Assembly (NCBI GenBank): GCA_016207565.1
Contig: JACQPK010000487.1
Location: forward strand, 1 to 33,571
Reading direction: 5' to 3'
Source: Elusimicrobiota bacterium
GTDB lineage: Bacteria > Elusimicrobiota > Elusimicrobia > UBA1565 > JACRDR01
DNA: 33,571 bases
Shown here in pieces: positions 9,354-33,511 of this stretch. Position 1 is the stretch's first letter; every line of letters begins with the position of its first letter. Position numbers and translations under genes: made by a program. Under the pieces are notes generated by a model that was not told where the DNA came from, ran no database searches, and saw nothing but the letters and a program-made list of their open reading frames with translations.

Positions 9354-9382
9354 TTGACAGGATTCGTCGACGGACCTACAAT
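9354..9382 (+). promoter_or_regulatory. Strong promoter of SBP-OmpA/TelA operon
   Basis: Consensus TTGACA (9354-9359), a 17-base spacer and TACAAT (9377-9382). The expected start is near 9389, giving a 28-base leader with GGGGAGG (9403-9409) seven bases before ATG 9417. It is the best promoter match in the window and the only clear one for the operon up to 18420. Confidence 0.75.
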
Positions 9383-9416: not shown

Positions 9417-11144
9417 ATGACACCGCCTGAGACGCGCCGCACCCGGCTCGCAGCCGTCACGTTGGCGTCGCTCGCGGCGCTCTCGCCGCTCGCGCGCGCC
9501 CAAGGCGCGCCGCCGCCGCTGGCCTCGGCCGTCGGCGGGGCGGTCCAGGACTGCGGGGCCGGAGGCTCCGTCCAGGTCCCGATCATCACCTGGGGCGGAG
9601 ACATCCCGACGATCCATGCCAACGGCGCGCAGGGCGCCACGGCCTCGGGCAGCCTGTTCGCCAAGGAGGGCCTCAGCCTCAAGCTGGTCCGCGAGGACGT
9701 GTTCGCCAAGCAGCTCGAGGCCTACCTGAAGTGCGAGTCCCCCTACCTCCGTGGGACGGCGGGGATGATCATGATGGCCTCCGAGGCCGCCAACCGCGAC
9801 CCGCGCACCAAGCCGGTCGCGATCTACCAGCTCACGTGGTCGGCGGGCGGCGACGCCTTGGTGGTCAAAGACAGCATCCGCAACCCGAAGGACCTGCGGG
9901 GCAAGACGATCGCGCTGCAGTCCTACGGCCCCCATGTGGACTACCTCGGCAAGATCCTCGCCGGCGCGGGCCTCAGCTTCGCCGACGTGAAGCTGCGCTG
10001 GGTAAAGGACCTCACCGGCACGAAGAGCACCCCGGGCGCGGCGCTCCACGAGGCGGGCGTCGACGCGGCGACGGTGATCACCCCCGACGCCCTCGCGCTC
10101 ACCTCGGGAGGCAAGACGGGCACCGGCGCCGAGGACTCCGTGCGCGGGGCGCGGATCATGCTGACGACGAAGTCCGCGAACCGGATCATCGCCGACCTGT
10201 ACGCGGTGCGCTCCGACTACCTCGCGAAGGAACGCGGCAAGGTCGAGGCGTTCGTCCGAGGGCTCCTGAAGGCGCAAGAGGAGGTTAAGGCGCTGTTCAA
10301 GGACAAGCAGTCGCGCGCCGGCGACTACGGGAAGCTCCTCGCGGCGGGCGGACAGCTCCTCCTCGACAGCCCGCAGGCGACCAAGGACGTCGAGGGGCTT
10401 TACGCCGACGCCGAGTTCGCGGGCTACCCCGGCAACGTGCAGTTCTTCAACGCGCCGCAGAACCCCCGGGGCATGGCCAACCTCGTCGCCGAGATCCAGA
10501 GCGGGCTCGTGCCGCTCGGCCTCCTGGGCTCCAAGCAGGCGCTCGCCAAGCCGCCCTGGAGCTTCGACCAGCTCAAGTCCGGGCTCAAGGAGACCTCGGC
10601 GGCCGCCGCTCCCCGGTTCGACCAGGCGCAGGTCGCCCAGGTGGTGTCGAAGCGGCAGAAGCAGGGCACGCTCGCGCAAGGGGGCCTCTTCGCCTTCGAG
10701 GTGTTCTTCAAGCCGAACCAGTCGGATTTCCCGGCCTCGCGTTACGAGGAATCCTTCAAGAAGGCGATCGACCTGGCCTCGACGTACGGAGGCGCGGTCC
10801 TGACCGTCGAGGGGCACTCCGATCCGCTAGGCTATCTTCGCAAGGCCAAGGAGAAGGAGTCGGACCTCGTCCTCAAGCGCATGCGCCAGGCCGCCCTCAA
10901 CCTGAGCCTCTCGCGGGCCAACGCCGTGCGCGACAGCCTCGTGAAGTACGCTAAGTCCAGCGGCATCAGCCTCGACGCGTCCCAGTTCGCGGTGGTCGGC
11001 CACGGGATCGACCAGCCCCGGAGCGGGATCTGCGGCGACGCCCCCTGCGCGCCGAAGTCCGAGCAGGAATGGCTCGACAACATGCGCGTCGAGTTCCGCA
11101 TCATCGAGGTCGAGGCCGAGGACGCGGTCTTCAAGCCCCTGTGA
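9417..11144 (+). CDS. Periplasmic SBP-OmpA fusion protein 1
   Basis: 575 residues. The signal peptide ends at ...ARA-Q (about residue 29). Residues about 50-400 form an NMT1/SsuA-like type 2 periplasmic binding fold (VPIITWGGDIPTIHANG; ALVVKDSIRNPKDLRGKTIA; ADLYAVRSDYL). Residues about 420-570 form an OmpA-type peptidoglycan-binding domain. It retains the two diaminopimelate-contact positions: D469 in VEGHSDP and R557 in NMRVEFR. A soluble binding protein tied to the cell wall is unlike a normal importer SBP and suggests a sensing or structural role. It is the first gene of the operon; the next gene overlaps its stop as GTGA. Confidence 0.87.
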   Translation: MTPPETRRTRLAAVTLASLAALSPLARAQGAPPPLASAVGGAVQDCGAGGSVQVPIITWGGDIPTIHANGAQGATASGSLFAKEGLSLKLVREDVFAKQLEAYLKCESPYLRGTAGMIMMASEAANRDPRTKPVAIYQLTWSAGGDALVVKDSIRNPKDLRGKTIALQSYGPHVDYLGKILAGAGLSFADVKLRWVKDLTGTKSTPGAALHEAGVDAATVITPDALALTSGGKTGTGAEDSVRGARIMLTTKSANRIIADLYAVRSDYLAKERGKVEAFVRGLLKAQEEVKALFKDKQSRAGDYGKLLAAGGQLLLDSPQATKDVEGLYADAEFAGYPGNVQFFNAPQNPRGMANLVAEIQSGLVPLGLLGSKQALAKPPWSFDQLKSGLKETSAAAAPRFDQAQVAQVVSKRQKQGTLAQGGLFAFEVFFKPNQSDFPASRYEESFKKAIDLASTYGGAVLTVEGHSDPLGYLRKAKEKESDLVLKRMRQAALNLSLSRANAVRDSLVKYAKSSGISLDASQFAVVGHGIDQPRSGICGDAPCAPKSEQEWLDNMRVEFRIIEVEAEDAVFKPL

Positions 11145-11944
11145 GCCAGAAACGCTCCGGACGCTCCCTCCTGCTCTGGCTCGCCGCCGCCGGCGTGGCC
11201 TGGGTGTGGTGGCCGAAAGACACGCCGCGGCCCTCCCCGCCGCCGCCGCCCGTCCACCTCGACGCGCCGGTTCCCCCGGCCCCGGCGCGGCGGGCCGGCT
11301 GGGTGAAGTACGAGTGGCCGCGACAGACCGGCGCCGCGCCGGCGCTCGCCGCCAACCTCGCGGCTCGCAACGTCTACGTCGTGCTGGTCGGCTCCGGCAG
11401 CATGGGCGAGAAGGGCTGCTCCGGCAACCTGACTAAGATGGAAGCCGCCAAGCAGGCGCTGGCCGAGTTCGCGAAGGCCCTGCCGGCGGACGCGCAACTC
11501 GGGCTCGCCGCGTTCGACGGAGCGGGGATCTCGGAGCGGGTGCCGCTCGCCGCGGGCAACCGCGACGCCTTTCTGGCCGCGGTCATGGCGGTCAAAGACA
11601 ACGGCGGAACCCCGCTCAAAGCCGCGATCACCATCGGCGTCGACAAGCTCGAGGAGGCGGCGCGCCGCCAGCTCGGCTACGGCGAGTACACGCTGGTCGT
11701 GGTCACCGACGGGGTCGCCGACTCGGGCCAGGATCCCGCGGGCGTCGTGGGGGACCTCCTCGAGCGCTCCCCCGTCGCGGTCCACACGATCGGCTTTTGC
11801 ATCGGCACCAACCACTCGCTCAACCAGCCGGGGCGCACGCTCTACAAGTCCGCGCAAAGCGTGTCCGAGCTGCGGGCGGGACTGGGCGCGGTCTTGGCGG
11901 AGGCGGAGTCGTTCGACGCGGCCAAGTTCGCCGCGCCGAAGTAG
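11141..11944 (+). CDS. Membrane-anchored VWA-domain protein, defective MIDAS
   Basis: About 267 residues from GTG 11141, overlapping the previous stop. Residues 8-24 form an N-terminal membrane anchor, followed by a Pro-rich spacer (28-50) and a von Willebrand A domain (about 75-255). In the metal-ion-dependent adhesion site the usual Asp of Asp-x-Ser-x-Ser is V83 (VLVGSGSM, codon GTC at 11387). The serines S85 and S87, T157 (GGTPL) and D190 (VVTDGVAD) are kept. Metal binding may be weakened. An insert with two Cys (CSGN near residue 93; GFCIGTN near 222) might form a disulfide. It probably faces the periplasm alongside the SBP-OmpA proteins. Confidence 0.85.
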   Translation: MSQKRSGRSLLLWLAAAGVAWVWWPKDTPRPSPPPPPVHLDAPVPPAPARRAGWVKYEWPRQTGAAPALAANLAARNVYVVLVGSGSMGEKGCSGNLTKMEAAKQALAEFAKALPADAQLGLAAFDGAGISERVPLAAGNRDAFLAAVMAVKDNGGTPLKAAITIGVDKLEEAARRQLGYGEYTLVVVTDGVADSGQDPAGVVGDLLERSPVAVHTIGFCIGTNHSLNQPGRTLYKSAQSVSELRAGLGAVLAEAESFDAAKFAAPK

Positions 11945-11947
11945 GCC

Positions 11948-13498
11948 GTGGGAAAGCTCGGCGCCTTCCTCGCCTTCCTGATCGTGGGGACGCTGGGCCT
12001 CATCGGAGCCTATTTTCTCCTGCCCCGCCTCGCGGCGAAGCGCCAGCTCGAGACCTCCGACGCGAAGGACACGAAAGGGACGATCCGGGTCGGCGTGGAC
12101 AACTGGGTGGGCTACTTCCCCCTCTGCAGCCCGGAGCTCCGCCGGCGGATGCGCGGCGCGAAGTACCTCCTCCAGTGCGTCGAGGACACCGCCGATTATC
12201 CGGCCCGCATGAAGAAGCTGGGGCGCGGCGAGCTCGACTTCGCGGTCGCGACCGTGGACTCCTTCCTGCTCAATGGGCCCGCAGAGCGGTTCCCGGGGGC
12301 GATCATCGCGGTGCTCGACGAGTCCAAGGGCGGCGACGCCATCGTCGCGGACCGCCGGCGGGTCAAGAGCATCGAGGAGCTCAAGAACCGGCCGAGGCTG
12401 AAGATCGCCTTTACGCCCGCCTCGCCGAGCGAGCACCTCTTGAAATCCGTGGCCGTCCACTTCGACATCCCGGCGATGCGCGAGCGGCGCGGCGCGTGGC
12501 GCGTCGAGACGGACGGCTCTCCGGCCGCCTTGAAGCTGCTCGAGACCGGAGAGGTCGACGCCGCCGTCCTCTGGGAGCCCGACGTCTCGCGGGCGACGGC
12601 CCGGCCGAACGTGGTCAAGCTGCTCGGGACCGAGAGCACCCGGCGCCTCATCGTGGACATCCTCCTCGTCAATCGCGACTTCCTCGCCCGCGAGCCCCAG
12701 GCGATCAAGGTCCTCCTCGCGAACTATTTCCGAGCCCTGAAAGCCTACCAGCAGAGCCCCGAGACGCTCAAAGACGACCTGGTGAGCGCGACCAAGCTCA
12801 GCACGAAGCAGGTGGAGTCCATGCTCCAAGGAGTGCGCTGGGCCACGCTCGCCGACAACGCGTCGCTGTGGTTCGGGATCGGGCTGGGCTCGGAGACCGG
12901 GGACGAAGGGTTGGTCGACACGATCGAGTCCTCGGCCCAGATCCTCGTCGCCAGCGGCGATTTCTCCTCCTCGCCCGTTCCCGAAGGCGACCCCTACCGC
13001 CTGCTCAACAGCTCGTTCGTCTCGGAGCTGGTGAAGGCCGGAGGGTTCGAGGGCTTCGGGACGGCCGCCTCCGTCAAGAGCGCGAGGAGCGACTTCCCCC
13101 CGCTCGACGAGCGCGGCTGGTCCCTGCTCCGGGAGATCGGCACGATGAAGGTCCTCCCCATCACGTTCCAGAGCGGGACCGCCGAGCTGAGCCTCGAAGG
13201 CAAGCGAGAGCTCGACAAGGCCGCCTCGAACCTGGAGCACTACCCGGGCTTCCGCGTGCTCCTGCGGGGGCACACCGGCCTCAACGGCGACCCGGCGCAG
13301 AACCGCCGCCTCTCGCAGGAGCGCGCGGAGGCCGTCCAGCGGTACCTGACGGTCACCCACGGCATCGACGGAGACCGCCTTCGCGCCGAGGGGATCGGCT
13401 CGGCGAAGCCGCTGGCCCGCCTTCCGAACGAGGGCGACCGGCCGTACAACTACCGCCTCCCCCGGGTCGAGCTGTGCCTGGTCATGGAGAGTTTGTGA
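11948..13498 (+). CDS. Membrane-anchored SBP-OmpA fusion protein 2
   Basis: About 516 residues from GTG 11948. Residues 3-26 form a membrane anchor instead of a cleaved signal. Residues about 45-330 are an NMT1/SsuA-like binding fold (TIRVGVDNWVGYFP; GELDFAVATVDSFLL; DAAVLWEPDVSRA). Residues about 400-515 are an OmpA-like domain (ITFQSGTAELSLEGKREL; LSQERAEAVQRYL). The diaminopimelate-binding Asp of GHTD is G444 here (RGHTG), and the usual NRRVE reads YRLPRVE, so wall binding may be lost or altered. It is a diverged paralog in domain plan of the gene at 9417. Confidence 0.85.
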   Translation: MGKLGAFLAFLIVGTLGLIGAYFLLPRLAAKRQLETSDAKDTKGTIRVGVDNWVGYFPLCSPELRRRMRGAKYLLQCVEDTADYPARMKKLGRGELDFAVATVDSFLLNGPAERFPGAIIAVLDESKGGDAIVADRRRVKSIEELKNRPRLKIAFTPASPSEHLLKSVAVHFDIPAMRERRGAWRVETDGSPAALKLLETGEVDAAVLWEPDVSRATARPNVVKLLGTESTRRLIVDILLVNRDFLAREPQAIKVLLANYFRALKAYQQSPETLKDDLVSATKLSTKQVESMLQGVRWATLADNASLWFGIGLGSETGDEGLVDTIESSAQILVASGDFSSSPVPEGDPYRLLNSSFVSELVKAGGFEGFGTAASVKSARSDFPPLDERGWSLLREIGTMKVLPITFQSGTAELSLEGKRELDKAASNLEHYPGFRVLLRGHTGLNGDPAQNRRLSQERAEAVQRYLTVTHGIDGDRLRAEGIGSAKPLARLPNEGDRPYNYRLPRVELCLVMESL

Positions 13499-13525
13499 GG
13501 ATGCCGTGAGGAACGTTCCCGCATA

Positions 13526-14371
13526 ATGGGAAAGGTGGCCGACTTCTCGCGCGACGCGACCCGCAAGGCCGTGCTGCGCGCGGCGCTGGAGAACCCCCTG
13601 ACGATGTACTCGACCGGGGTCGGGCTCCTGGGCACGCTGGCCGTCGGGCTCTTCGGCGCCGCCGCCGCCCCGGTCGCGGTCGGGGGCCTGGGCCTCGGCT
13701 TGGCGAGCGGCCTCTTCACGTACTTCGTGCGCGGCAACGCCGTGGCCGACCGCCACGTCAAGGCGCTCTACGAGGAGCTCCAGAAGCAGCGCCAGGCGCT
13801 CATGGCTCGGCTCGAGAAGTCGCTCAAGGATCTGGCCCGCGACGCTCAGGGAGAGGTCTGCGAGCAGGCCGACCAGGGGGCCAAGCAGTTCCGGATGGCC
13901 CGCGAGCGCTTCGAGAGCCTCCAGCGCACGCTCGACGACAAGCTCCAGCCCGGCGAGCTCACCTACTCCCGCTACCTGGGCGCCTCCGAGCAGGTCTATC
14001 TTTCCGTGCTGGACAATCTCTCGGTCGTGGCCGCGCTCCTTTCGAGCGTGAGCGCGATCGACCCCCGCTACATCGCCGCGCGGAAGAAGGCGCTCCTGGC
14101 CTTGACCTCTCCGCCGGAGGCGGACCGCAAGGAGCTCAAGACGATTTCGGAGCGCGAGCGCCTGCTCTCCGACAACCTCGAGAAGGTCAATTCGCTCCTG
14201 ACGAGCAACGAAGAGGCGATCACGAACATGGACAAGCTGGGCGTCGCCTTGGCGGAGATCCGGACGAGCCCCGACGGCGGCGGGGCCGATCTCGACACGG
14301 CGATCCAAGAGATGGAAGAGCTCGCGAAGCAGGCTCATCGGTACGGCAGGGACCCCGGAGGCGAATCATGA
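13526..14371 (+). CDS. Membrane hairpin/coiled-coil protein, TelA partner
   Basis: 281 residues. Two closely spaced hydrophobic helices (about 28-48 and 50-70, rich in Gly/Ala/Leu) are followed by a long charged helical region (about 75-280), mostly coiled coil (KALYEELQKQRQALMARLEK; ERERLLSDNLEKVNSLLTSN). No named family is recognised with certainty. Its position directly before TelA, overlapping it by ATGA, and its architecture resemble the XpaC proteins that accompany TelA in other bacteria. A GGAACGTTCC palindrome (13510-13519) lies just upstream. Confidence 0.7.
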   Translation: MGKVADFSRDATRKAVLRAALENPLTMYSTGVGLLGTLAVGLFGAAAAPVAVGGLGLGLASGLFTYFVRGNAVADRHVKALYEELQKQRQALMARLEKSLKDLARDAQGEVCEQADQGAKQFRMARERFESLQRTLDDKLQPGELTYSRYLGASEQVYLSVLDNLSVVAALLSSVSAIDPRYIAARKKALLALTSPPEADRKELKTISERERLLSDNLEKVNSLLTSNEEAITNMDKLGVALAEIRTSPDGGGADLDTAIQEMEELAKQAHRYGRDPGGES

Positions 14372-15546
14372 GCAGTCTGGTCACGGCGAACGAAACGGAA
14401 GCGAAGAAGGAGCTCGGTCTCGTCGACCCGAACGAGACGGCCCTCGAGCCCGGAGAGGACCCCAAGCTGGAGAAGAAGGCCGACGCGGTCCTCAAGGAGC
14501 TCTTGGATCTCAAGGGAGACAAGGAGGCCGCGAAGGCGCGCGGCAAGAACACCGTCGACACGCTCGGCGGAGAACTCCAGCGCCAGGCGGCGCTCCAGAG
14601 CGCCAAGCTCAAGGAGCCCGTCAAGAAGCTCGCCGGCCGCGCGGGCGACGGCGGCGAGGTGGCGAAGTCGCTGCTCGACCTGCGCGACACGGTCGAGGAC
14701 CTCGACCCGATGCGCTTCGACTTCGGACCGGGCTTCGCCACGCGGATCCTGGGCTACATCCCGGGCGTGGGCACGCCGCTCAAGCGGTACTTCTCGCGCT
14801 ACGAGAGCTCGCAGACCGTGATCAACGCGATTATCCGGTCCCTCGAGATCGGCTCCGACCAGCTCAAGCGCGACAACGTGACGCTGGCCGAGGACCAAAG
14901 GCGCATGCGCGACCTGACCGAGAAGCTGCTGAAGGCGATCCGCTTCGCGCAGGTCCTGGACCGCAAGCTTGAAGGCAAGCTGTCGGAGCTTCCTTCGACC
15001 GACCCCATGCACGCCTTCATCTCGGAGGAGCTCCTCTTCCCGCTGCGTCAGCGCATCATGGACCTCCAGCAGCAGCTGGCCGTCAACCAGCAAGGGATCC
15101 TCGCCATGGAGATCCTCATCCGCAACAACAAGGAGCTGATCCGGGGCGTCAACCGGGCGCTCAACGTCACCGTCGGCGCCCTGCAGGTCGCCGTGACGGT
15201 CGCGTTGGCGCTCAACGACCAGCAGATCGTGCTCGAGAAGGTGCAGGGCCTGACGAAGACGACCACGGACCTCATCGGCCATACCGCCGCCCGGCTGAAG
15301 ACCCAGGGCGCGGAGATCCACAAGCAGGCGGCGGGGACCATGCTCGACATGGAGGCGCTGAAGCGGGCCTTCGCCGACATCCGCGACGCCATGGAAGACG
15401 TCGCGCAGTTCCGCAGCCGGGCGCTGCCGCAGATGGCGCAGAACATCAAGGAGCTCGACGACCTGACCGACCAAGCCGGGGCGTCGATCGCGAAGATGGA
15501 AAAAGGGACGAAATCGGTTCCGGTGATTCCGCTCGACCTGGATTAG
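14368..15546 (+). CDS. TelA-family toxic anion resistance protein
   Basis: 392 residues of the TelA/KlaA family (PF05816), a cytoplasmic, almost wholly helical protein. Family pattern is visible across about 90-370: DLRDTVEDLDPMRFDF, ATRILGYIPGVGTPLKRYF, YESSQTVINAIIRSLE, FPLRQRIMDLQQQLAVNQQG, LIRNNKELIRGVNRALNVTV and VALALNDQQIVLEKVQGL. TelA proteins were named from tellurite-resistance loci, but their biochemical role is unsettled; they are tied to envelope stress and membrane-associated functions. A context of three binding proteins and an ABC transporter suggests coupling to the envelope rather than tellurite resistance as such. Confidence 0.92.
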   Translation: MSSLVTANETEAKKELGLVDPNETALEPGEDPKLEKKADAVLKELLDLKGDKEAAKARGKNTVDTLGGELQRQAALQSAKLKEPVKKLAGRAGDGGEVAKSLLDLRDTVEDLDPMRFDFGPGFATRILGYIPGVGTPLKRYFSRYESSQTVINAIIRSLEIGSDQLKRDNVTLAEDQRRMRDLTEKLLKAIRFAQVLDRKLEGKLSELPSTDPMHAFISEELLFPLRQRIMDLQQQLAVNQQGILAMEILIRNNKELIRGVNRALNVTVGALQVAVTVALALNDQQIVLEKVQGLTKTTTDLIGHTAARLKTQGAEIHKQAAGTMLDMEALKRAFADIRDAMEDVAQFRSRALPQMAQNIKELDDLTDQAGASIAKMEKGTKSVPVIPLDLD

Positions 15547-15556
15547 GAGACCCCAC

Positions 15557-16615
15557 ATGAAAACGACTAGACGTTTGCTGCTCGCGCTGGCGCCGCTCGT
15601 CATCGGCGCGGCGTCCGCCTTGCCCGCCGCGGCGGAAAAGAAGACGTATGCGGTGGCCTGGTCCCACTACACGGGCTGGGAGCCGTGGGCTTACGCCGAG
15701 GAATCCGGGATCCTCAAACGCTGGGCCGACAAGTACGGGATCAGCATCAAGCTCTCGCTGATCAACGACTATGTCGAGTCCATCAACCTCTATACCGCCG
15801 GAAAGTTCGACGCCTGCGTCATGACCAACATGGACGCCCTGACCATCCCCGCGGTCGGCGGGGTGGACTCGACGGTGGCGGTCATCGGCGACTTCTCCAA
15901 CGGCAACGACGGCATCGTCCTCAAGAAGGGCAAGACCGTCGCGGACCTCAGGGGCCGGCCCGTCAAGCTCGTGCAGCTGTCGGTGTCCCACTACCTCCTC
16001 AGCCGCGCGCTGGGAATGAACTCCATGTCCGAGAAGGACATCACCATCGTCAACACCAGCGACGCCGACATCGGCGCGGTGTACGCGACGGATCCGAACG
16101 GCAGCGCGGTGACCTGGAACCCGATCCTCATGAAGGCGCGGAACGCCCCGGGCTCGACGCTCGTCTTCGACTCCTCGCAGATCCCGGGCGAGATCATGGA
16201 CCTCCTGGTCGTCAAGACGGGCGCGCCCGAGGAGCTGAAGAAGGCCCTGACCGGCGCCTGGTACGAGACGCTGCGGACCATGTCCGGCAAAGACAAGAAG
16301 GCCGCGTCGGCGATCGCGTCGATGGCCAAGTTCGCGGGCGGCACGACGGCGGAGTTCAAGGCCCAGCTCAAGACGACGCGGATGTTCTACGACGCCGCGG
16401 AGGCCGCGTCCTTCGCGAAGGGGTCGGAGGTCAAGAAGACGATGGAGTACGTCCGCACGTTCTCCTTCGATCACGGGCTGTTCGGCGAGCGCGCCAAGGA
16501 CAAGGACTTCGTCGGCATCGAGTTCGCGGACGGCTCCGTCTTAGGCGACAAGAACGTCGTCAAGCTGCGCTTCACGGACCGATACATGAAGCTGGCCGCC
16601 GACGGGAAGCTGTAG
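15557..16615 (+). CDS. ABC transporter SBP, urea-carboxylase-region type
   Basis: 352 residues with a signal peptide ending near AAA-EKK (residue 25). The mature protein closely follows the ABC_peri_uca pattern (TIGR03427): AVAWSHYTGWEPWAYAEE, NDYVESINLYTAGKFDAC, MTNMDALTIPAVGGVDST, GDFSNGNDGIVLKKG, VQLSVSHYLLSRAL, NTSDADIGAVYAT and FDSSQIPGEIMDLLV. Family members sit next to urea (guanidine) carboxylase genes, so guanidine or a small amide/amine is the obvious candidate ligand; no carboxylase is present in this window. AGGAG overlaps the TelA stop. It is the dedicated SBP for the following permease and ATPase. Confidence 0.9.
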   Translation: MKTTRRLLLALAPLVIGAASALPAAAEKKTYAVAWSHYTGWEPWAYAEESGILKRWADKYGISIKLSLINDYVESINLYTAGKFDACVMTNMDALTIPAVGGVDSTVAVIGDFSNGNDGIVLKKGKTVADLRGRPVKLVQLSVSHYLLSRALGMNSMSEKDITIVNTSDADIGAVYATDPNGSAVTWNPILMKARNAPGSTLVFDSSQIPGEIMDLLVVKTGAPEELKKALTGAWYETLRTMSGKDKKAASAIASMAKFAGGTTAEFKAQLKTTRMFYDAAEAASFAKGSEVKKTMEYVRTFSFDHGLFGERAKDKDFVGIEFADGSVLGDKNVVKLRFTDRYMKLAADGKL

Positions 16616-17521
16616 GTGGAGCGGACGGAGGCGGCTCCCGGCGGCCCGGGCCCCGGGCCCGTCGCCATGGGCAGCGCGCGCGCGCCGAGCTTCTGGGGCC
16701 TTCACGCCCGGCCCGGCAGCCGCGCGCGCTGGGCCCTGGGAGCCGTCCCGTTCGTCCTCACGCTGGCAGTGTATCTGGGGTTCTCGCGCGCGAGGCTGCG
16801 CGAGAACCCCATGGACAAGCTCCTGCCGTCCCCCCAGGCCATGGCCGAATCGGCGGGCCGGATGGCCGCGGAGCCCGACCGGAGGACGGGAGAGAGGCTG
16901 CTCTGGGCCGACACTCGCGCGAGCCTCCGCCGGCTCGGGCTGGGCGTCGGGACCGGCGCCCTCGCCGGGCTCTTCGTCGGCTTGAACCTCGGCCTGCTGC
17001 CGGGCCCGGCGGCGCTGCTCCAGCCCTTCCTCACCGCGGTCTCGATCATCCCGCCCTTGGCGATCCTCCCGATCCTGTTCATCGCCTTCGGCGTCGACGA
17101 GCTCTCGAAGGTCGCGCTGATCTTCATCGGGACGTTCCCGGTGATCGCGCGCGACGTCATGCGAGCCGCCCGCAAGACCCCGGCCGAGCAGGTCGTGAAG
17201 GTGCTGACGCTCGGCGCCTCTCCGCTCGAGGTGATCTACCGCATCGTCTTGCCCCAGGTCCTTCCCGCCCTCGTCGAGACCGTGCGGCTCACCTTGGGCG
17301 GGGCGTGGCTGTACCTGATCGCCGCGGAGGCGATCGCGGCCGAGAGCGGGCTCGGCTACCGGATCTTCCTCATGCGCCGCTACCTGGCGATGGACGTCAT
17401 CATCCCCTACGCCCTGTGGATCACCGCGATCGGGTTCGCGCTGGACTGGGGGCTCAAGACGCTGACGCGCCGGCTCTACCCGTGGTACTTCGCGGACGAG
17501 GAGGAGGGTTCGGAGTCATGA
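16616..17521 (+). CDS. ABC transporter permease, SsuC/TauC type
   Basis: About 301 residues from GTG 16616, directly after the SBP stop; ATG 16667 is an alternative. It has an N-terminal helix (ALGAVPFVLTLAVYLGFS) and about five further membrane helices. The EAA cytoplasmic loop that docks on the ATPase is clear (EQVVKVLTLGASPLEVIYRI followed by VLPQVLPALVETV). It matches BPD_transp_1 permeases of the nitrate/sulfonate/taurine group. It overlaps the ATPase start by ATGA. Confidence 0.92.
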   Translation: MERTEAAPGGPGPGPVAMGSARAPSFWGLHARPGSRARWALGAVPFVLTLAVYLGFSRARLRENPMDKLLPSPQAMAESAGRMAAEPDRRTGERLLWADTRASLRRLGLGVGTGALAGLFVGLNLGLLPGPAALLQPFLTAVSIIPPLAILPILFIAFGVDELSKVALIFIGTFPVIARDVMRAARKTPAEQVVKVLTLGASPLEVIYRIVLPQVLPALVETVRLTLGGAWLYLIAAEAIAAESGLGYRIFLMRRYLAMDVIIPYALWITAIGFALDWGLKTLTRRLYPWYFADEEEGSES

Positions 17522-18420
17522 AGAAGGCCGTCCCGCGCTCCTCCGACCCGGCGGGGAAGCTGCTCTACCTCGAGAACGTCTACAAGGCCTACGGCGCCAA
17601 GCTGGTGCTCCGGGACATCGACCTGTCGGTGCGTCCCGGCGAGTTCTGCAGCGTGGTCGGACCCAGCGGCTGCGGCAAGACGACGCTCCTGCGCATGATC
17701 CTGGGCTGGGAACGCCCTTCTTCAGGCCGGATCCTGCTCGAAGGACTCGCGGTGTCCGAGCCCGATCCCCGACGCGGCATCGTGTTCCAGAGGTATTCTC
17801 TGTTCCCGCACCTCTCGGTCCTCGACAACGTCCTGCTCGGCCCGCGGCTGAGCACCGGTTTCTTCGCCTGGCGGCGGGAGCGGTCCGCCCGCCGGGACGA
17901 GGCGATGGAGCTGCTGAAGACCGTGCGCCTCGAGCGCGAGTGGTCGAAGTACCCCCACGAGCTCTCAGGCGGCATGCAGCAGCGCGTCGCGATCGCCCAG
18001 GCCATGATCATGCGGCCCGCCGTGCTGCTCATGGACGAGCCCTTCGGGGCGCTCGACCCCGGGGTCCGCGAGGAGCTGCAGGTCCATCTCCTGCAGACCT
18101 GGGAGCGCCTGCGCATGACCATCTTCTTCGTGACGCACGACATCCCCGAGGCGCTGTTCCTCGGCACGCGCGTCTTCGTGCTGTCGCAGTTCTACCGGGA
18201 GGACACGGCCAAGGGCCCCGAACGGCACGGGGCGAGGGTCGTGGCGGACTACCAGATCAAGAAGGGCGCCAGCTCGACGGACGTCAAGCGCACGGCCGAG
18301 TTCGCCGACCTCGCGCAGACCATCCGGCACGACGGCTTCGAGCCGGAGAGCCGCAAGCACGTCGACGAGTTCGACCTCCACCATCCGGACTCCTGGAGAT
18401 CGCCCGAGCCGGAGGCCTAG
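17518..18420 (+). CDS. ABC transporter ATP-binding protein, SsuB/TauB type
   Basis: 300 residues with all nucleotide-binding motifs intact: Walker A GPSGCGKTT (48-56), Q-loop in VFQRYSLFPHL, signature LSGGMQQR, Walker B LLMDEPFGALD and the switch His in FVTHD. A C-terminal extension of about 75 residues (from SQFYREDTAKGPE) goes beyond the usual SsuB/TauB core and may mediate regulation. With the two preceding genes it forms a complete importer. Its last four bases overlap the stop of the opposing AAA+ gene, with no terminator visible. Confidence 0.95.
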   Translation: MKKAVPRSSDPAGKLLYLENVYKAYGAKLVLRDIDLSVRPGEFCSVVGPSGCGKTTLLRMILGWERPSSGRILLEGLAVSEPDPRRGIVFQRYSLFPHLSVLDNVLLGPRLSTGFFAWRRERSARRDEAMELLKTVRLEREWSKYPHELSGGMQQRVAIAQAMIMRPAVLLMDEPFGALDPGVREELQVHLLQTWERLRMTIFFVTHDIPEALFLGTRVFVLSQFYREDTAKGPERHGARVVADYQIKKGASSTDVKRTAEFADLAQTIRHDGFEPESRKHVDEFDLHHPDSWRSPEPEA

Positions 18421-19931
18421 GCCTTCGGCTCGACGAAGGCGTCCTTCGCCTGCGCGGCCTCCGCGAACGAGGCGGATTGGGCCCGCCCCTCCAGCAGCCA
18501 GGAGCGGAGGTACGCGACCCGCTCCCGTTGGGAGACGGCCAGGGGGACGAGCCGTTTCAAGGACGCCGCGACGTCCTTCGTCTCGAACTCCCGCTTCTCG
18601 TTGAAGGCGGCGACCATCGCGTCGGCGACGGCGTGCTCGAGCTCGGCGCCCACGTAGCTCGCGGAGGCGGCCGCCAGCGCCTGCAGGTCGAACGACTCGG
18701 GCTTGCGCCCGCGCTTGGCGAGGTGGACCGCGAGGATCGCCTTGCGCTCCGCCAGCGTGGGCAGGTCGAGGAAGAAGATCTCGTCGAACCGGCCGCGCCT
18801 CAGGAGCTCCGGGGGCAAGGCCGAGATGTCGTTGGCCGTCGCGACCACGAAGCACGGCGCGCGCTTCTCGGCCATCCAGGTGAGGATGGAGCCGAACACC
18901 CGGGTGCTCGTCCCCGAGTCGTTACCCCCGTGCGCCAGGGCCTTCTCCATCTCGTCGATCCACAAGACGCACGGCGAGACCGACTCGGCCAAGCGCAGCG
19001 CCTTGCGGGTGCGCACTTCCGATTCGCCGACGAAGCTCCCGAAGAGCGCCCCGACGTCGAAGCGCACGAGCGGCAGGCCCCAAAGGGCGCCGACCATCTT
19101 GGCGGAGAGGCTCTTTCCCGTGCCGGGGATGCCGATGAGCGCGATGCCCTTCGGCACGTCGAGGCCGTAGCGCCGGGCCTCCTCCCCGAACGCCCCGGCC
19201 CGGGATCCGAGCCAGCGCTTGAGCACCTCGAGCCCGCCGACGTCGGAAGGGGCCGCGGACACAGGATAGAACTCGAGCGCCTTGCTCTCGCGGATCAGCT
19301 CCTTTTTCTCCTGCACCACGAGCGCGACGTCCGACTCGTCCAGCATGCCGTCGGAGACGAGGCCGCGCGCGAAGACCCGCTGCGCCTGCGCGCTGGTCAA
19401 CCCGCGGGCGGCCTGCAGCAGCCGGCCGCGACGGTCCTCGTCGAGCCCCTCCTTGGGCTCGAGGCTCGCGAGGAGCTGGTCGAGCGCCGCCCCGAGCTCG
19501 GCCTCGCCGGGGAGCGGCAGGCTGAGCAGGACCGCGCAGTCCCGGAGCTCCTCGGGGACCGCGTCGGTCGGAGCGGTGACCACGATGGAGCGCCGGGTGA
19601 AGCGCAGCTCCTGCGCGACCGAGCGGAGCTTGCGTTTGATCTTCTTGTCGGTCCACGCGTCGTGGAAATCTCGGAAGACGTAGACCGCCTTGTCGGGCCC
19701 CTTGCGCACCTGCTCCAGGGCCGAAAGCGGGTCCGCGCCGGACTGAAGCGGCGTGTTCTCCTGCGTCAGCGCGACGAAGCCGTCGGCCAGGTCCCACGAG
19801 TAGCACGGCCGGGACTTCCGCTCGCACACGCCCTTGACCAGCTCCACCGCGCGGATCTCCTCGGGGGTCGAGAGCACGATCAAGGTCGACCGCGCGCGAA
19901 GCAGGACGTCGAGGTCTTTGGCGAGTTCCAT
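18417..19931 (-). CDS. Ycf46-like AAA+ ATPase
   Basis: 504 residues, the normal length for Ycf46-type proteins. The N-terminal half (about 1-215) is an inactive P-loop-like domain (DLDVLLRARSTLIVLSTPEE; AVYVFRDFHDAW). The C-terminal half is an active AAA domain: Walker A GIPGTGKS with K273, pore-type stretch around LFGSFVGESE, Walker B WIDEME with D326/E327, sensor ATANDISALPPELLRRGRFD. Ycf46 homologues are linked to carbon uptake regulation in cyanobacteria, but the general role is not known. Its start overlaps the radical SAM stop (TGATG), so the two are coupled. It converges on the TelA/ABC operon with a four-base overlap, which suggests a functional tie. Confidence 0.9.
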   Translation of the reverse strand: MELAKDLDVLLRARSTLIVLSTPEEIRAVELVKGVCERKSRPCYSWDLADGFVALTQENTPLQSGADPLSALEQVRKGPDKAVYVFRDFHDAWTDKKIKRKLRSVAQELRFTRRSIVVTAPTDAVPEELRDCAVLLSLPLPGEAELGAALDQLLASLEPKEGLDEDRRGRLLQAARGLTSAQAQRVFARGLVSDGMLDESDVALVVQEKKELIRESKALEFYPVSAAPSDVGGLEVLKRWLGSRAGAFGEEARRYGLDVPKGIALIGIPGTGKSLSAKMVGALWGLPLVRFDVGALFGSFVGESEVRTRKALRLAESVSPCVLWIDEMEKALAHGGNDSGTSTRVFGSILTWMAEKRAPCFVVATANDISALPPELLRRGRFDEIFFLDLPTLAERKAILAVHLAKRGRKPESFDLQALAAASASYVGAELEHAVADAMVAAFNEKREFETKDVAASLKRLVPLAVSQRERVAYLRSWLLEGRAQSASFAEAAQAKDAFVEPKA

Positions 19932-20950
19932 CAGGCGGGCGCCCCCTCGGCCAGCAGGCCGAAGTCCTGAGTCCGGTTGAACGCCTGCAGGCGCGCGAGC
20001 AGGGCCTCGTCGCCCGCGCGGATGAAGGAGCCCCCGGGCACGGCGAGATTCTCATCGTAGAGGCCGAGGAAGAGCGAGATCCTCTTGCCGCGCGCCGCCA
20101 ACCCGGCGCGCTGAAGCGACTCGAGCCGTGGAGGCTCGTAGCGCCCCGCCCTAAACGCCTCCGCGAGCGGGGTCCCCTTGGCGACGTAGGTGGCGTTGAG
20201 GTGCATGCTGATCGCGACGCCGTATTTCGTCGCGAGCGCGTCGAGGTAGTCCACCCCGCGCGCGACGTCGGCGACGGCCTCGTCTTCCGACATCCCCTCG
20301 ACCGGCTTGAGCATGAAATAGGCCTTGAGCCGGAAGGCGTGGCGGGCCGCGAGCGCCGCCGCGGCCTCGAACGCCCGGAGCGTCAAGCCTTTCCGGAAGA
20401 CCGCGTTGCGGACGCGGTCGTCGAAGGCCTCGAACCCGACCGCCAGCTCGATGGCCGCGCCGGGCCGACCCTCCCGCAGGATGGAAGCGAGCAGGTCGAA
20501 CTCGAAAGCGTCGAGGTACTCGGCGCGGCTTTCCAGGGTGAGGACCTGGAGCTTCGGGCAGCGCGCGGCCAATTCCCGGACGCAGCCGGCCAAGGCCTCC
20601 GTGGGGAACGTGCGCTCGTCGAGCACCGACCCGTTGTTGGAGAGCGTGACCCGGCCCAGCCCCGCGGCCTGCTCGGGAGAGAGGACCGACGCGAAGACGA
20701 AGTCGAGCTGGCGCCGGATATCGCCGGCCGATACCGCCACTCGGCTTCCCAAGGACGGGAGGTTGCAGCCCGTGCAGACGGACCAAAGGCAGGCCTGGGT
20801 ATAGAGGACGAGGAAGAAGGCGTTCCCCTCCGGCGTCTCCTGGAACCACCAGTCGGCGGGCCTCGCGGGGTCGTGCGCTTCGTTGAAGCCGTACGTCTTG
20901 CCCACGCGGCGCGTCGCGTCGACAAGCCGGTCGGAGTCCGATGGCTTCAT
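19931..20950 (-). CDS. RaSEA-like radical SAM protein
   Basis: 339 residues. C54, C59 and C62 (ACLWSVCTGCNLPS) form a C-x4-C-x2-C cluster instead of the common C-x3-C-x2-C. The remainder follows the COG1244/TIGR01210 pattern of archaeosine synthase subunit RaSEA: TLSNNGSVLDERTFP, LTLESRAEYLDAFEFD, AIELAVGFEAFDDRVRNAVF followed by RKGLTLRAFEAAA, and RLKAYFMLKPVEGMSEDEAV. Bacterial members have no settled function. ATG 20950 lies six bases after a -10 box, so the message is predicted leaderless. Confidence 0.82.
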   Translation of the reverse strand: MKPSDSDRLVDATRRVGKTYGFNEAHDPARPADWWFQETPEGNAFFLVLYTQACLWSVCTGCNLPSLGSRVAVSAGDIRRQLDFVFASVLSPEQAAGLGRVTLSNNGSVLDERTFPTEALAGCVRELAARCPKLQVLTLESRAEYLDAFEFDLLASILREGRPGAAIELAVGFEAFDDRVRNAVFRKGLTLRAFEAAAALAARHAFRLKAYFMLKPVEGMSEDEAVADVARGVDYLDALATKYGVAISMHLNATYVAKGTPLAEAFRAGRYEPPRLESLQRAGLAARGKRISLFLGLYDENLAVPGGSFIRAGDEALLARLQAFNRTQDFGLLAEGAPA

Positions 20951-20956
20951 GGCAGG

Positions 20957-20985
20957 ATGATGTGATATTCGCCGCCCAATTGCAA
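20957..20985 (-). promoter_or_regulatory. Promoter of radical SAM/AAA+ operon
   Basis: On the minus strand TTGCAA (20980-20985), a 17-base spacer and CATCAT (20957-20962) are followed by six bases and ATG 20950. No ribosome-binding site is seen, consistent with a leaderless message. Confidence 0.5.
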
Positions 20986-21083
20986 AGCGCGACGACGGCC
21001 TCCGCCAGGACGGCCTTTCGGCCCAGACGCGGCTGGGTCGCAAGTCCCAGCCTTCCGCGGGCTTGCGGAGGCGCGCTGGGAGC

Positions 21084-21839
21084 ATGCTCCCGGCGCTCGC
21101 GGCGTTCTTGGCGTGGCAGGCGTGGGCGCAGGAGTTCCCCGACCCGTCCCTCTTCGAGCGGCTGGGCGGCGTGCGCGAGAGCGCCTTGGCCTACGTGCGC
21201 AAGGTGGCGGCGCGGCCCTCCAGGCGCGCGACGGGCATCCGGGTCCAGGGGAGGCTGCCGCGCTTCGAGGCGGACCCCGCGCGCCACCATCGCCGGGCGC
21301 CGGGCGAGCCCGCGTGGGTCGAGGGCCCGCTCGACCGCCCCAGCGTCTATCTCGGCGCGAGCGGGCCGGGGCTCGAGATCGACGCCGGGCTCTGCTGGGA
21401 CCACGTCTACCTCCCGGGGCGGAGCGGCTTCGCTTTCCGTCCGTTCTGGCGCGTCGACGACGAGCGCGGCAACCGCTGGGAGAACCCGAGGAAGGGCTCT
21501 CGGGAGAACGTCTACTTCGAACCCGGCGAGGCGGTGACCATGACCTTCCAGCGGGCGGGCCCGGGCCGGTTCCGCCTCGACATCCGCGCGGAGGCGGAGC
21601 CCTCCCGGCACTTCACGGTCTTCATCGCCGCGCGAGCCCCGACGGGCGCGCTGTCGTTTAAGCGCGTCAACGCGATCGACCAGCGCGGCAACGAAGGCCG
21701 CGACGCGGCGGCCACGCGCGCCTCGGCCTCCGGCGCGCGCTGGGACTCGACGACCCTCCTCGGCCCGCAGGGAGTCTACGGCCCCCAGACCGCGATCGCA
21801 CCCGCCGAGTCGTTCGACATCGCCGCGCAAGTGAAGTAA
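21084..21839 (+). CDS. Secreted protein of unknown function
   Basis: About 251 residues from ATG 21084; a TTG at 21063 in frame is an alternative, but the hydrophobic signal starts right at the ATG (MLPALAAFLAWQAWA, cleavage before QEFPDP). The mature part is beta-rich with repeated aromatic residues (SVYLGASGPGLEIDAGLCWD; FAFRPFWRVDDERGNRWENP; AVTMTFQRAGPGRFRLDIRA; FTVFIAARAPTGALSFKRVN). This suggests a lectin-like or jelly-roll sandwich; I recognise no family. Its last codons and stop lie inside the 21829-21877 palindrome. Confidence 0.65.
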   Translation: MLPALAAFLAWQAWAQEFPDPSLFERLGGVRESALAYVRKVAARPSRRATGIRVQGRLPRFEADPARHHRRAPGEPAWVEGPLDRPSVYLGASGPGLEIDAGLCWDHVYLPGRSGFAFRPFWRVDDERGNRWENPRKGSRENVYFEPGEAVTMTFQRAGPGRFRLDIRAEAEPSRHFTVFIAARAPTGALSFKRVNAIDQRGNEGRDAAATRASASGARWDSTTLLGPQGVYGPQTAIAPAESFDIAAQVK

Positions 21840-21895: not shown

Positions 21896-23533
21896 ATGGC
21901 GCAGCGTCAGGCGCGTAGAGCCGGGCTGGACCCGCTGGCCCCCGACACCCCCGCGATCGCGAGCGATTTCGACGGCTCGTCGCGCGAGGCGGGAGAGAAC
22001 CGGGCCTACCACGAAGGCCTGCTGAAGGACCTCCGCGAGAAGCTCGACCGGGTCCGCCGCGGCGGCCCGCCCGCGTCGGTCGAGCTCCACCGCAAGCGCG
22101 GCAAGCTGACCGCGCGCGAACGGATCGCCAAGCTCATCGACCCCGACGGGGCGTGGATCGAGCTTTCCGCGCTGGCCGCGCTCGGGATGTACGAAGACGA
22201 GGTCCCCTCGGCGGGGATCGTCGCCGGCGTCGGCAAGGTCGCCGGCCGCTGGTGCCTGATCGCGGCCAACGACGCGACCGTCAAGGGCGGCACCTACTAC
22301 CCCGAGACGATCAAGAAGCACCTGCGCGCGCAGGAGATCGCGCTCGAGAACCGGCTGCCGGCCCTCTACCTCGTGGACTCGGGCGGCGTGTTCCTTCCGA
22401 AGCAGGCCGAGGTCTTCCCGGACAAGGAGCATTTCGGGCGGATCTTCTACAACCAGGCCGTCATGTCGTCGATGGGCATCCCGCAGATCTCGGCCGTCAT
22501 GGGCATGTGCACGGCCGGCGGCGCGTACGTGCCGGCGATGTCGGACGAGGCGATCATCGTCCGCGGCACGGGCACGATCTACCTGGGCGGGCCGCCGCTC
22601 GTCAAAGCCGCCACCGGCGAGGAGTCGACCGAGGACGAGCTCGGCGGCGGCGAGATGCACTCGACGGTCTCGGGCGTCACCGACTATCTCGCCGACTCCG
22701 ACGAGCACGCGCTCGCGCAGCTGCGGGCGATCGTCGACAACCTCGGCCTCCCCCGCGAGCCGGCCCCGCCGTCCTGCGAGGAGCCCCGCTACCCGGCCTC
22801 CGACCTGTTCGGCCTCGTGCACCGCGACCTGCGGCGGCCGACGGACGTCAAAGAGGTCCTCGCGCGGCTGGTGGACGGCTCGCGCTTCCACGAGTTCAAG
22901 GCGAACTACGGGCGCTCGCTCGTGTGCGGGTTCGCGCGCTGGATGGGCCGGCCGGTCGGCATCCTCGGCAACCAAGGCATCCTCTTCTCCGAGTCGGCGC
23001 TCAAGGGCGCGCACTTCATCGAGCTCTGCGGCCAGCGCGGGTTGCCGATCGTCTTCCTGCAGAACATCACCGGATTCATGGTCGGCAAGCAGTTCGAGCA
23101 GGGCGGCATCGTGAAAAACGGCGCCAAGCTCGTGCAGGCGGTGTCGACGGTGCCGGTGCCGAAGATCACGGTCATGACCGGCTCGTCCAACGGCGCCGGC
23201 AACTACGCGATGTGCGGCCGCGCCTACGGGGCCCGCGTCCTCTTCACCTGGCCGAACGCCCGCGTCTCCGTCATGGGCGGCGAGCAGGCGGCCGGCGTCA
23301 TGGCGATGATCAAACAGGCGAAGGTGAAGCTCTCTCCGGAAGAGGTCGAGGCGATCAAGAAGCCGGTCCGCGCCCAGTACGAGAGGGAAGGCCACCCGTA
23401 CTACGGCACGGCGCGGCTCTGGGACGACGGGATCCTCGAGCCCGGCGACACGCGCCGCGTCGTCGGCTGGTGCCTCGAGATCGCCGCCCATCATCCGGCC
23501 GGAGACGTCCGCCACCCCGTCTTCCGGATGTAG
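21896..23533 (+). CDS. mccB: Methylcrotonyl-CoA carboxylase, beta (carboxyltransferase) subunit
   Basis: 545 residues, full length for the carboxyltransferase subunit that transfers carboxyl from biotin to 3-methylcrotonyl-CoA in leucine degradation. The crotonase-type N and C halves are both complete. Family hallmarks include [106 protein letters not shown] and [12 protein letters not shown]. The GGTYYP and KQ...FPD features favour methylcrotonyl- or geranyl-CoA over propionyl-CoA carboxylase, and the following hydratase and lyase favour the former. The biotin-carrying alpha subunit is not in the window. Confidence 0.93.
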
Positions 23534-23537
23534 CCCG

Positions 23538-24308
23538 GTGATCCTCGCCAAGCGCGACGGCGACGTCCTCCGCGTCACCCTCAACCGTCCCGAGGTCCGC
23601 AACGCCTTCGACGAGGACGTCATCGCCGCCGCCACGCAGGTGTTTCGCGCGGCGGCGAAGACGGCGGGGCTGCGGGCGATCGTGCTCAAGGGCGCCGGGA
23701 AGGACTTCTGCGCCGGGGCCGACGTCCGCTGGATGCGCCGCGCCGCGGGCTACACGCCGGCCCGCAACAAGCAGGACGCGCTGCGTCTCGTCGAGATGTG
23801 CCGCGCGATCGACTCCGCGCCGATGCCGGTCCTGGCGGGCGTCCAGGGCTCCTGCTTCGGCGGCGGGCTCGGCGTGATCGCGGCCTGCGACATCGTCGTC
23901 GCCGCCGAGGACTCGGTGATGTCCTTCTCCGAGTGCCGCCTCGGGATCGTGCCGGCGGTGGTCTCCTCCTTCGTCCTGCCCAAGATCGGCGCCTCGCAGG
24001 CCCGTCGCTACTTCCTGACGGCCGAGACCTTCGGCGCGCACGACGCGCGGCGCATCGGCCTGGCGCACGAGGTGGCCCCGGCCGCCGAGCTCGACGCCAA
24101 GCTGGACGGGCTGGTCGCCTGGATCCTGCGCGCCGGCCCCAACGCGGTGCGCGAGGCCAAGGCGCTCATCCGCCGCGTCGCGCCGCTGCCGCTCGAGAAG
24201 CGGATCGCGGTCACCATCGAGACCCTGGCCCGGGTCCGCGCCTCCGACGAAGGGAAGGCGGGGCTCTCGGCCTTCCTCGAGAAGAGGCCCGCGCCGTGGC
24301 TCAAGTAA
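23538..24308 (+). CDS. Methylglutaconyl-CoA hydratase (enoyl-CoA hydratase family)
   Basis: About 256 residues from GTG 23538, four bases after the carboxylase stop. It is a crotonase-fold hydratase converting 3-methylglutaconyl-CoA to HMG-CoA, inferred from its place between the carboxylase and HMG-CoA lyase. Motifs are KDFCAGADVRWMRR (CoA and oxyanion site), GSCFGGGLGVIAACDIVVA and the catalytic Glu segment SFSECRLGIVPAVVSSFVLP. The last resembles LiuC/AUH-type enzymes. Length is normal. Confidence 0.88.
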   Translation: MILAKRDGDVLRVTLNRPEVRNAFDEDVIAAATQVFRAAAKTAGLRAIVLKGAGKDFCAGADVRWMRRAAGYTPARNKQDALRLVEMCRAIDSAPMPVLAGVQGSCFGGGLGVIAACDIVVAAEDSVMSFSECRLGIVPAVVSSFVLPKIGASQARRYFLTAETFGAHDARRIGLAHEVAPAAELDAKLDGLVAWILRAGPNAVREAKALIRRVAPLPLEKRIAVTIETLARVRASDEGKAGLSAFLEKRPAPWLK

Positions 24309-25189
24309 GGCTCGTCGAGGTCGGGCCGCGCGACGGCCTGCAGAACGAGAAGGCGGTCGTCATCCCCCTCGCCGCCAAGGTCGAGTTCATCGAGGCGCTC
24401 GCGGCGGCGGGCCTCCGCGAGATCGAGGCCGGCGCGTTCGTGCACCCCGCCAAGGTCCCGCAGATGGCCGACTCCGACGCGGTGTTCGAGACGATGAAGC
24501 GCCGGGCGGGCGTGGTCTACTCGGCCCTCGTGCCGAACGAGGCCGGGCTCGAGCGGGCTCTGCGGGCGAGGGCCGACAAGGTCGCGGTGTTCACCGCCGC
24601 TTCCGAAACGTTCAACCGGAAGAACATCAACGCCGGGATCCAAGAGTCCCTCGACCGGTTCAAGCCGGTGGTCGCGAGGGCCGCGGAGGCGAAGCTCCCC
24701 GTGAGGGGCTACGTCTCCACCGCGTTCTGGTGCCCCTACGAAGGCAAGGTCGCGCCCAATCAAGCCGTGGACGTCTGCCTGCGGCTGCGCGACCTCGGCG
24801 TGCGGGAGCTGTCCGTGGGGGATACCATCGGCAAGGCCTCTCCCAACGACGTCCGCGCGCTGCTCGAGCCGCTGCTCAAGCGCGTCGAGGCCGCGGACGT
24901 CTTCCTCCACTTCCACGACACCTACGGCATGGCCGTCGCGAACGCCCTCACCGCCTACTCCGAGTTCGACATCACCGGCTTCGACGCGTCGGCCGGCGGG
25001 CTCGGCGGCTGCCCGTACGCGCCCGGCGCGTCCGGGAACGTCGCCACCGAGGACCTGCTCTACGCCCTCAAGGCCGAGGGCGCGGAGGTCCCCGCGGAGC
25101 CGCTGGAGGTCGCGCGGGCGGCAGCCGCGCTCGAGCGGCACCTCGGCCGGCCGCTCGCCTCCCGGCTCTCCTGCATGGCGCGCGCATGA
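24296..25189 (+). CDS. Hydroxymethylglutaryl-CoA lyase
   Basis: About 297 residues from GTG 24296, overlapping the hydratase end by 13 bases, with GAAGAGG (24281-24287) eight bases upstream. It cleaves HMG-CoA to acetoacetate and acetyl-CoA, the last step of leucine breakdown. It is a TIM-barrel with the HMGL signature [20 protein letters not shown], including active-site C239. Catalytic R12 and D13 are in [10 protein letters not shown], and the metal-binding HFHDTYG is also present. It overlaps the next gene by ATGA. Confidence 0.94.
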
Positions 25190-25602
25190 AAGCCCTGCTG
25201 CTCCTCGCCGCCACGCTCGCCGCCGCGGGGACGAAGCAGTTCGGCCCTTTCGGCCCGGGCGAGGCCGGCCGCTGCGGCCGCCGTCCCAACTGCGTGTCGA
25301 CCCTCGACGACCGCAAGCGCCGGCGCATGGAGCCCTGGGCGTACGAAGGCTCCCGCGAGGACGCTCAGAGGCGGCTCGAGCAGGCGGTCCAGGGCGAGCT
25401 CGCCGACGCCCGTCCTGGGTACCTCCACGCCGAGTTCCGCTCCAAGCTCTGGAAGTTCGTCGACGACGTCGAGTTCTGGCTGCCCGAGCACGAGCGCGTG
25501 ATCCACTTCCGCTCCGCCTCCCGCACGGGCTGGTCGGACTTCGGGGCGAACCGCCGGCGCATGCAACGGCTCGCCGAGCGCTTCGCCGGGAAGGCCCCAT
25601 GA
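25186..25602 (+). CDS. DUF1499 family protein
   Basis: 138 residues. It has a short hydrophobic N-terminus ([15 protein letters not shown]), likely a signal peptide or anchor. The body follows the DUF1499 pattern: [32 protein letters not shown], then [20 protein letters not shown] near the C-terminus. The function of this family is unknown. It is joined to both neighbours by ATGA overlaps, so it is certainly part of the operon. Confidence 0.85.
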
Positions 25603-33437: not shown

Positions 33438-33511
33438 TGGTGGACCCGAGGGGAGTCGAACCCCTAATCCCTCCATGCCATGGAGACGTGATCACATTTC
33501 ACCTCGGGCCC
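33438..33511 (-). tRNA. tRNA-Ala (anticodon GGC), atypical D arm
   Basis: A 74-base cloverleaf with encoded CCA. The acceptor GGGCCCG pairs with CGGGTCC, including the G3-U70 wobble that identifies alanine tRNA. The anticodon arm TCTCC-ATGGCAT-GGAGG reads GGC with the A32/U38 pair typical of this isoacceptor. The T arm AGGGG-TTCGACT-CCCCT is canonical. The D arm GTGA-AATGTGA-TCAC has a minimal seven-base loop lacking the usual G18G19, and position 8 is A instead of U. It may be a functional odd tRNA or a decaying copy. Confidence 0.75.

Follow-up and report, generated by a model that had tools for sequence, protein, structure and literature searches.

A stretch of 33,571 nucleotides from an Elusimicrobiota bacterium (contig JACQPK010000487.1 of assembly GCA_016207565.1; the whole stretch is called the window below) carries a cassette of about nine genes that is well supported as a real, conserved multi-gene unit. 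Eight forward genes (g1-g8) are packed into positions 9417-18420 and encode two solute-binding proteins (SBPs) joined to OmpA domains, a VWA protein, a membrane coiled-coil protein, TelA and a complete ATP-binding cassette (ABC) importer of the guanidine-carboxylase-linked class; a Ycf46-like AAA+ ATPase gene (g9) converges on them. As judged from sequence, the products may form a trans-envelope complex for solute capture and sensing around the importer, a reading for which we regard the balance as even. The features are:

9354..9382, + strand: putative sigma-70-like promoter (TTGACA-17-TACAAT, 11/12 consensus match) upstream of the operon
9417..11144, + strand: g1, secreted SBP (NMT1/NitT-TauT type) with a C-terminal OmpA-like domain; Pfam NMT1 E 6e-8
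11141..11944, + strand, GTG start: g2, membrane- or lipid-anchored VWA protein; VWA E 9e-9, VWA_2 E 2e-10
11948..13498, + strand: g3, N-terminal transmembrane (TM) anchor, SBP (SsuA-like) and OmpA; OmpA E 9e-17, SsuA_fam E 3e-17
13526..14371, + strand: g4, N-terminal TM segments and coiled coil; outside any Pfam family, in a conserved slot flanked by g3 and g5
14368..15546, + strand: g5, TelA (PF05816), all-helical; 233.8 bits against a gathering score of 30
15557..16615, + strand: g6, guanidine/urea-carboxylase-linked importer SBP; TIGR03427 492 bits, NCBI cut-off 333.9
16616..17521, + strand: g7, importer permease; BPD_transp_1
17518..18420, + strand, ATG start: g8, importer ATPase; ABC_tran E 2e-33
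18417..19931, - strand: g9, Ycf46-like AAA+ ATPase (AAA and lid); PF00004 E 8e-27
19931..21085, - strand: g10, accessory radical SAM protein, weakly RaSEA-like; TIGR01210 98 bits, below the cut-off of 212

Spacings from g1 to g8 are -4, 3, 27, -4, 10, 0 and -4 bp. The VWA open reading frame (ORF) as listed starts at 11069, which is too early; the GTG at 11141, giving a 4-bp overlap with g1, is the probable true start. Third-position GC lies between 0.88 and 0.96 across the cassette genes (g8 was not scored separately), a coding-type composition. An earlier note, made from the sequence, had described eight tightly coupled genes with these domains in this order and an AAA+ gene converging on them with a four-base overlap; ORF and Pfam/NCBI family scans place all of them as described, with the overlap of g8 and g9 at 18417-18420. 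As for the note's single strong promoter, a consensus scan finds the site at 9354 as the sole one in 12.7 kb, where 0.3 are expected by chance, but a consensus match is no proof of transcription and the promoter is a candidate from sequence. A Shine-Dalgarno-like AAGGGGAGG precedes the ATG of g1 at 9417.

Conservation of the cassette was assessed with a g1 profile, scanned against 84,980 species, each represented by one genome, which returned 88 relatives, of which 80 loci were kept. This sample is a lower bound and, being collected via g1, is silent on whether the other genes occur alone. In profile-labelled gene order, g1 is followed by g2 in 79 of the 80 loci, g2 by g3 in 70, g3 by g4 in 62 and g4 by g5 in 44; within the importer, g6 precedes g7 in 37 and g7 precedes g8 in 39, and many of the missing pairs reflect contig ends. 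Median intergenic gaps are 8-142 bp. The importer genes lie ahead of g1 in some loci and are divergent in Spirochaetota. Twelve named phyla appear in the g1 tree, with most rows from Pseudomonadota (35) followed by Thermodesulfobacteriota (11), besides unlabelled KSB1, Aminicenantes and Parcubacteria rows; identity of g1 to its orthologues across the 12+ phyla is about 42-64%. No viral carriage of g1 was found. Protein searches of plasmids found it in Vibrio as well: pIFO15642 of V. penaeicida and pSEA2 of V. alfacsensis both carry it in the order ATPase, SBP-OmpA, VWA, SBP-OmpA, coiled coil, TelA, uca-type SBP and permease, with identities to the window of 44-45% (g1), 36-39% (g2), 36-37% (g3) and 25-27% (g4). 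A cassette confined to one genome, or an assembly artefact, is ruled out by these plasmids and the 80 conserved loci. Thus the two outcomes on which the earlier note would have been abandoned, a gene order peculiar to this genome or genes never accompanied by the importer, were not encountered: almost all of the 80 loci retain the gene order, and an importer SBP above the TIGR03427 cut-off is present in 39 of the 43 cassette genomes searched. Five loci belong to Parcubacteria/Sungbacteria (L017, L019, L052, L054 and L071), whose genomes measure about 1.0-1.2 Mb (size known for L017, L019, L054 and L071); because organisms with such reduced genomes retain some 11 kb for the cassette, strong selection on it is implied.

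By sequence, g6-g8 is predicted to be an importer of the guanidine-carboxylase-linked class, and the link of the third SBP to guanidine carboxylase, which the earlier note had stated, is strong. Four plasmid relatives, each encoded in a uca operon alongside UAAP1/2 and carboxylase, are 51-59% identical to the g6 protein, the value for the uca SBP of Azospirillum B510 being 58.6%; for cassette SBPs other than that of the window, identity to uca SBPs reaches 62%. The permease g7 is 52% identical to its uca-operon counterpart and the ATPase g8 50% over 233 aa. In the SBP tree, which is unrooted and contains just four uca rows, these four interleave as one fully supported group between cassette groups. 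Invariant residues common to both sets include D112, D118, E212 and D215. Single-sequence searches returned no solved structure for g6 or TelA. Importers of this kind are reported to carry guanidine (PMC12186494), whose natural source is still an open question (PMC12186494); a guanidine-like ligand is plausible for the cassette importer too. The cassette of locus L049 has permease and ATPase without g6, and the sole TIGR03427 SBP of that genome adjoins the guanidine carboxylase gene, an arrangement suggestive of one SBP serving both and a hint at a shared ligand. The cassette resembles the uca operon in its TIGR03427 SBP, permease and ATPase; it differs in lacking UAAP1/2, carboxylase, allophanate hydrolase and, in the loci tested, a guanidine riboswitch, and in adding g1-g5 and often an AAA+ gene.

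The proteins g1 and g3 are, by sequence, SBP relatives with OmpA domains of the peptidoglycan-binding type, g3 being also TM-anchored, so the tethering to membrane or peptidoglycan claimed earlier is supported by predicted TM segments and OmpA domains. Against the PF00691 gathering score of 27.2, g3 scores 61.7 bits and g1, just under it, 24.3 bits. An N-terminal TM segment is present in 66 of 75 g3 orthologues; those of g1 mostly have none and look secreted. Profiles of g1, g3 and g6 are aligned by hhalign with E values of 7e-10 to 2e-12, and all three SBPs possess an S-x-G-x-D motif at one homologous place, reading WSxGGDA, ESKGGDA and [FY]SNGNDG, respectively. The motif also occurs in uca SBPs; the stretch aligned to it in the solved TauA reads NSEALVV. 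The site may touch the ligand, and its aspartate may favour a cation. The first two SBPs had been described as more like sensors or struts than transporter SBPs; because all three have the common motif, g1 and g3 may just as well capture the solute or pass it on to the importer. As regards g2, a TM segment ahead of the VWA domain is found in 52 of 83 orthologues and a lipobox-like motif in 29, and the DxSxS-type motif of the metal-ion-dependent adhesion site (MIDAS) has its aspartate in 78 of the 83.

Towards the inner face, 64 of 66 g4 orthologues possess 1-3 TM-like segments. No recurrent Pfam family was found among 60 orthologues, and an assignment of g4 to XpaC or another Pfam family was discarded for the same lack of matches. 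Zorya ZorAB likewise combines a membrane coiled coil with a peptidoglycan-binding OmpA domain; however, g4 resembles the ZorA tail alone, weakly (E 5e-4 to 1e-3) and without the MotA/ExbB part, and SBP domains are foreign to Zorya. The TelA slot between g4 and g6 is filled in 11 loci (L072, L079, L080, L082 and L084-L090; hosts KSB1, Aminicenantes, Poribacteria and Acidobacteriota) by a helical family of about 275 residues without Pfam match. A comparison showed TelA and this substitute to be unrelated, and homology between them was rejected.

An AAA+ ATPase gene, of varying subfamily, lies beside 31 of the 80 cassettes. Genomes hold about 1-8 such proteins, and a chance AAA+ neighbour is expected in roughly 1-2% of cases per 20 kb (estimated from about 3 proteins per 4-Mb genome). 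In eleven proteobacterial and Desulfobacterota-type loci, one of them truncated by a contig end, a Ycf46-like gene lies upstream of g1 and diverges from it; in L038 such a gene is upstream and co-directional, and in the window it is convergent at the 3' end. CbbX-like genes occur near cassettes of Bdellovibrionota, Spirochaetota and one Myxococcota locus, in Sungbacteria and relatives another type is located within the operon or next to it, and a Verrucomicrobium cassette has one AAA+ gene within its operon. A further type directly follows g8 in 8/8 substitute-type loci that extend past g8 (two from one genome). In the Acidobacteriota-type clade the AAA+ type switches together with the TelA slot, and this joint exchange is the best hint that TelA and the AAA+ protein work together.

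In the complex that we envisage, g1 and g3 would each retain a small cationic solute, identical or similar, at the wall and would either hand it to g6 and the importer or report their occupancy. The VWA protein would clamp the periplasmic proteins in a metal-dependent manner, g4 would relay the state inward to a polymer of TelA type lying along the inner face of the membrane, and the AAA+ enzyme would remodel that polymer; the output could be uptake control, membrane protection or both. Ligand identity and signalling are the parts that we infer. Still more tentative, and in our view doubtful, is the fuller version in which a hitherto undescribed class of machine, found in many Gram-negative phyla and some Parcubacteria, would have its VWA-clamped wall SBP relatives report a small cationic solute, e.g. 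guanidine, through the coiled coil to a replaceable polymer in the cytoplasm (TelA or its substitute) remodelled by AAA+, while the sister SBP feeds the importer.

Several results weigh against a sensing complex of this composition. A full-length guanidine carboxylase above the cut-off is present in just 4 of 50 cassette genomes (none was found in the window's own genome, 77.5% complete), and neither the window nor 12 cassette loci yielded a guanidine riboswitch; use of guanidine as a nitrogen source via the carboxylase pathway is therefore unlikely in most cassette hosts. As controls, the uca locus L095 gave guanidine-I and guanidine-II riboswitches upstream of SBP and of carboxylase, and L094 none in the stretch scanned. 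The genomes of L025, L033, L035 and L051 hold g1-g5 without g6. In the window itself, VGSGS replaces DxSxS in g2 (11387-11401), the first MIDAS aspartate being valine (GTC, 11387-11389); the change takes a single base and could reflect either a mistake in the metagenome assembly or a genuine loss of metal binding. The model of TelA is poor (predicted local distance difference test, pLDDT, 63) and its fold search gave no match. The AAA+ tie drawn by the earlier note recurs across cassettes, but 21 well-covered loci have no AAA+ gene nearby, and because so many lack it the gene is a frequent partner, not a fixed part. Of the trans-envelope device proposed there, the conserved unit is supported and the sensing and signalling are putative. 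Neither among recurrent neighbours nor in the loci tested was a transcription regulator, kinase or riboswitch regularly found with the cassette.

Pure uptake is the rival that survives best, though we consider it rather unlikely. Here the wall-tethered g1 and g3 would concentrate the solute and pass it to g6, and VWA, g4 and TelA would only assemble or place the complex, with no signalling. The near-constant importer, the homologous motif of all three SBPs, the tight gene packing and the lack of a regulator conserved beside the cassette agree with this; on the other hand, no importer is known to need TelA, g4 and AAA+, and g1-g5 are retained without g6 in the genomes just mentioned.

Less probable, and clearly so in our estimate, is an envelope-stress or xenobiotic-resistance system of TelA/Ter type that recruited an importer-like module as sensor. 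Ter systems are described with TelA as a part lying beneath the membrane (PMC7824862). They have in common with the cassette that TelA occurs with a VWA protein and membrane components; carriage on plasmids fits, and on a Variovorax plasmid a TelA gene adjoins an SBP-VWA fusion and Wadjet genes. Unlike those systems, the cassette has wall-bound SBP-OmpA proteins and a guanidine-type importer, and TelA itself is replaceable. TerB, TerC, TerD and biosynthetic partners were not found among the window proteins scanned or the recurrent neighbour clusters, whole genomes lying outside this search, and PADLOC gives only generic AAA+, OmpA and coiled-coil similarity.

We hold it very unlikely that the cassette serves membrane remodelling, with TelA or its substitute as ESCRT-III/PspA-like polymers, the AAA+ enzyme acting like Vps4 and solute-loaded wall proteins as trigger. 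The modelled substitute shows a long helical hairpin with short helices (pLDDT 76), a topology like that of PspA/Vipp1, for which an AAA+ partner is also described; Vipp1/ESCRT-III entries rank 2-3 in its Foldseek search, and an FtsH/CDC48-like AAA+ recurs and switches type together with TelA. Yet the best fold match (E 0.011) is not significant, and hhalign against PspA assigns the substitute a probability of 13% and TelA no match, so that identification of either as ESCRT-III was dropped for want of significant profile or fold support. A defence system was rejected, as PADLOC gave no specific match.

Within the open-licence literature the gene combination appears to be undescribed, its component families being known. 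No description of the cassette was found there in searches on TelA, VWA, SBP, OmpA, XpaC, KlaB and Ycf46; NCBI automatic names already exist for parts of it. TelA is widespread and its role unsettled. The cassette connects a single lineage of TelA with a defined importer, wall-bound binding proteins and an AAA+ partner, and because of this link the role of TelA becomes testable. It also shows guanidine-type importers in a second setting, where the host has no carboxylase, and couples such an importer to two wall-bound SBP relatives, an adhesion-type (VWA) protein and an internal membrane scaffold; the function of this set can now be tested directly.

The Variovorax plasmid locus (L011, 7662-10908) likewise unites SBP, VWA and TelA, with SBP and VWA fused, and continues into Wadjet-type genes; it is a reduced relative of the cassette theme. 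It differs in its SBP_bac_11 family SBP, in lacking OmpA and importer, and in a TelA just 19-25% identical.

The window's assembly comprises 519 contigs. Window-type TelA is absent, beyond trace similarity, from 340 other genomes of the same phylum, and the tetranucleotide usage of the contig correlates with that of the other assembly contigs at r = 0.90. Because the composition fits the assembly while the phylum otherwise lacks this TelA, lateral gain of the cassette is the simpler reading; the alternative is misbinning from a genome of similar composition.

A radical SAM protein like g10 recurs near five other cassettes (L017, L019, L025, L038 and L070). Genes for a carboxyltransferase, an enoyl-CoA hydratase and an acetate kinase lie further downstream in the window (21896-26873) and seem to belong to ordinary acyl-CoA metabolism with no connection to the cassette, and a tRNA gene (Rfam RF00005) is located at 33441-33511, near the contig end.

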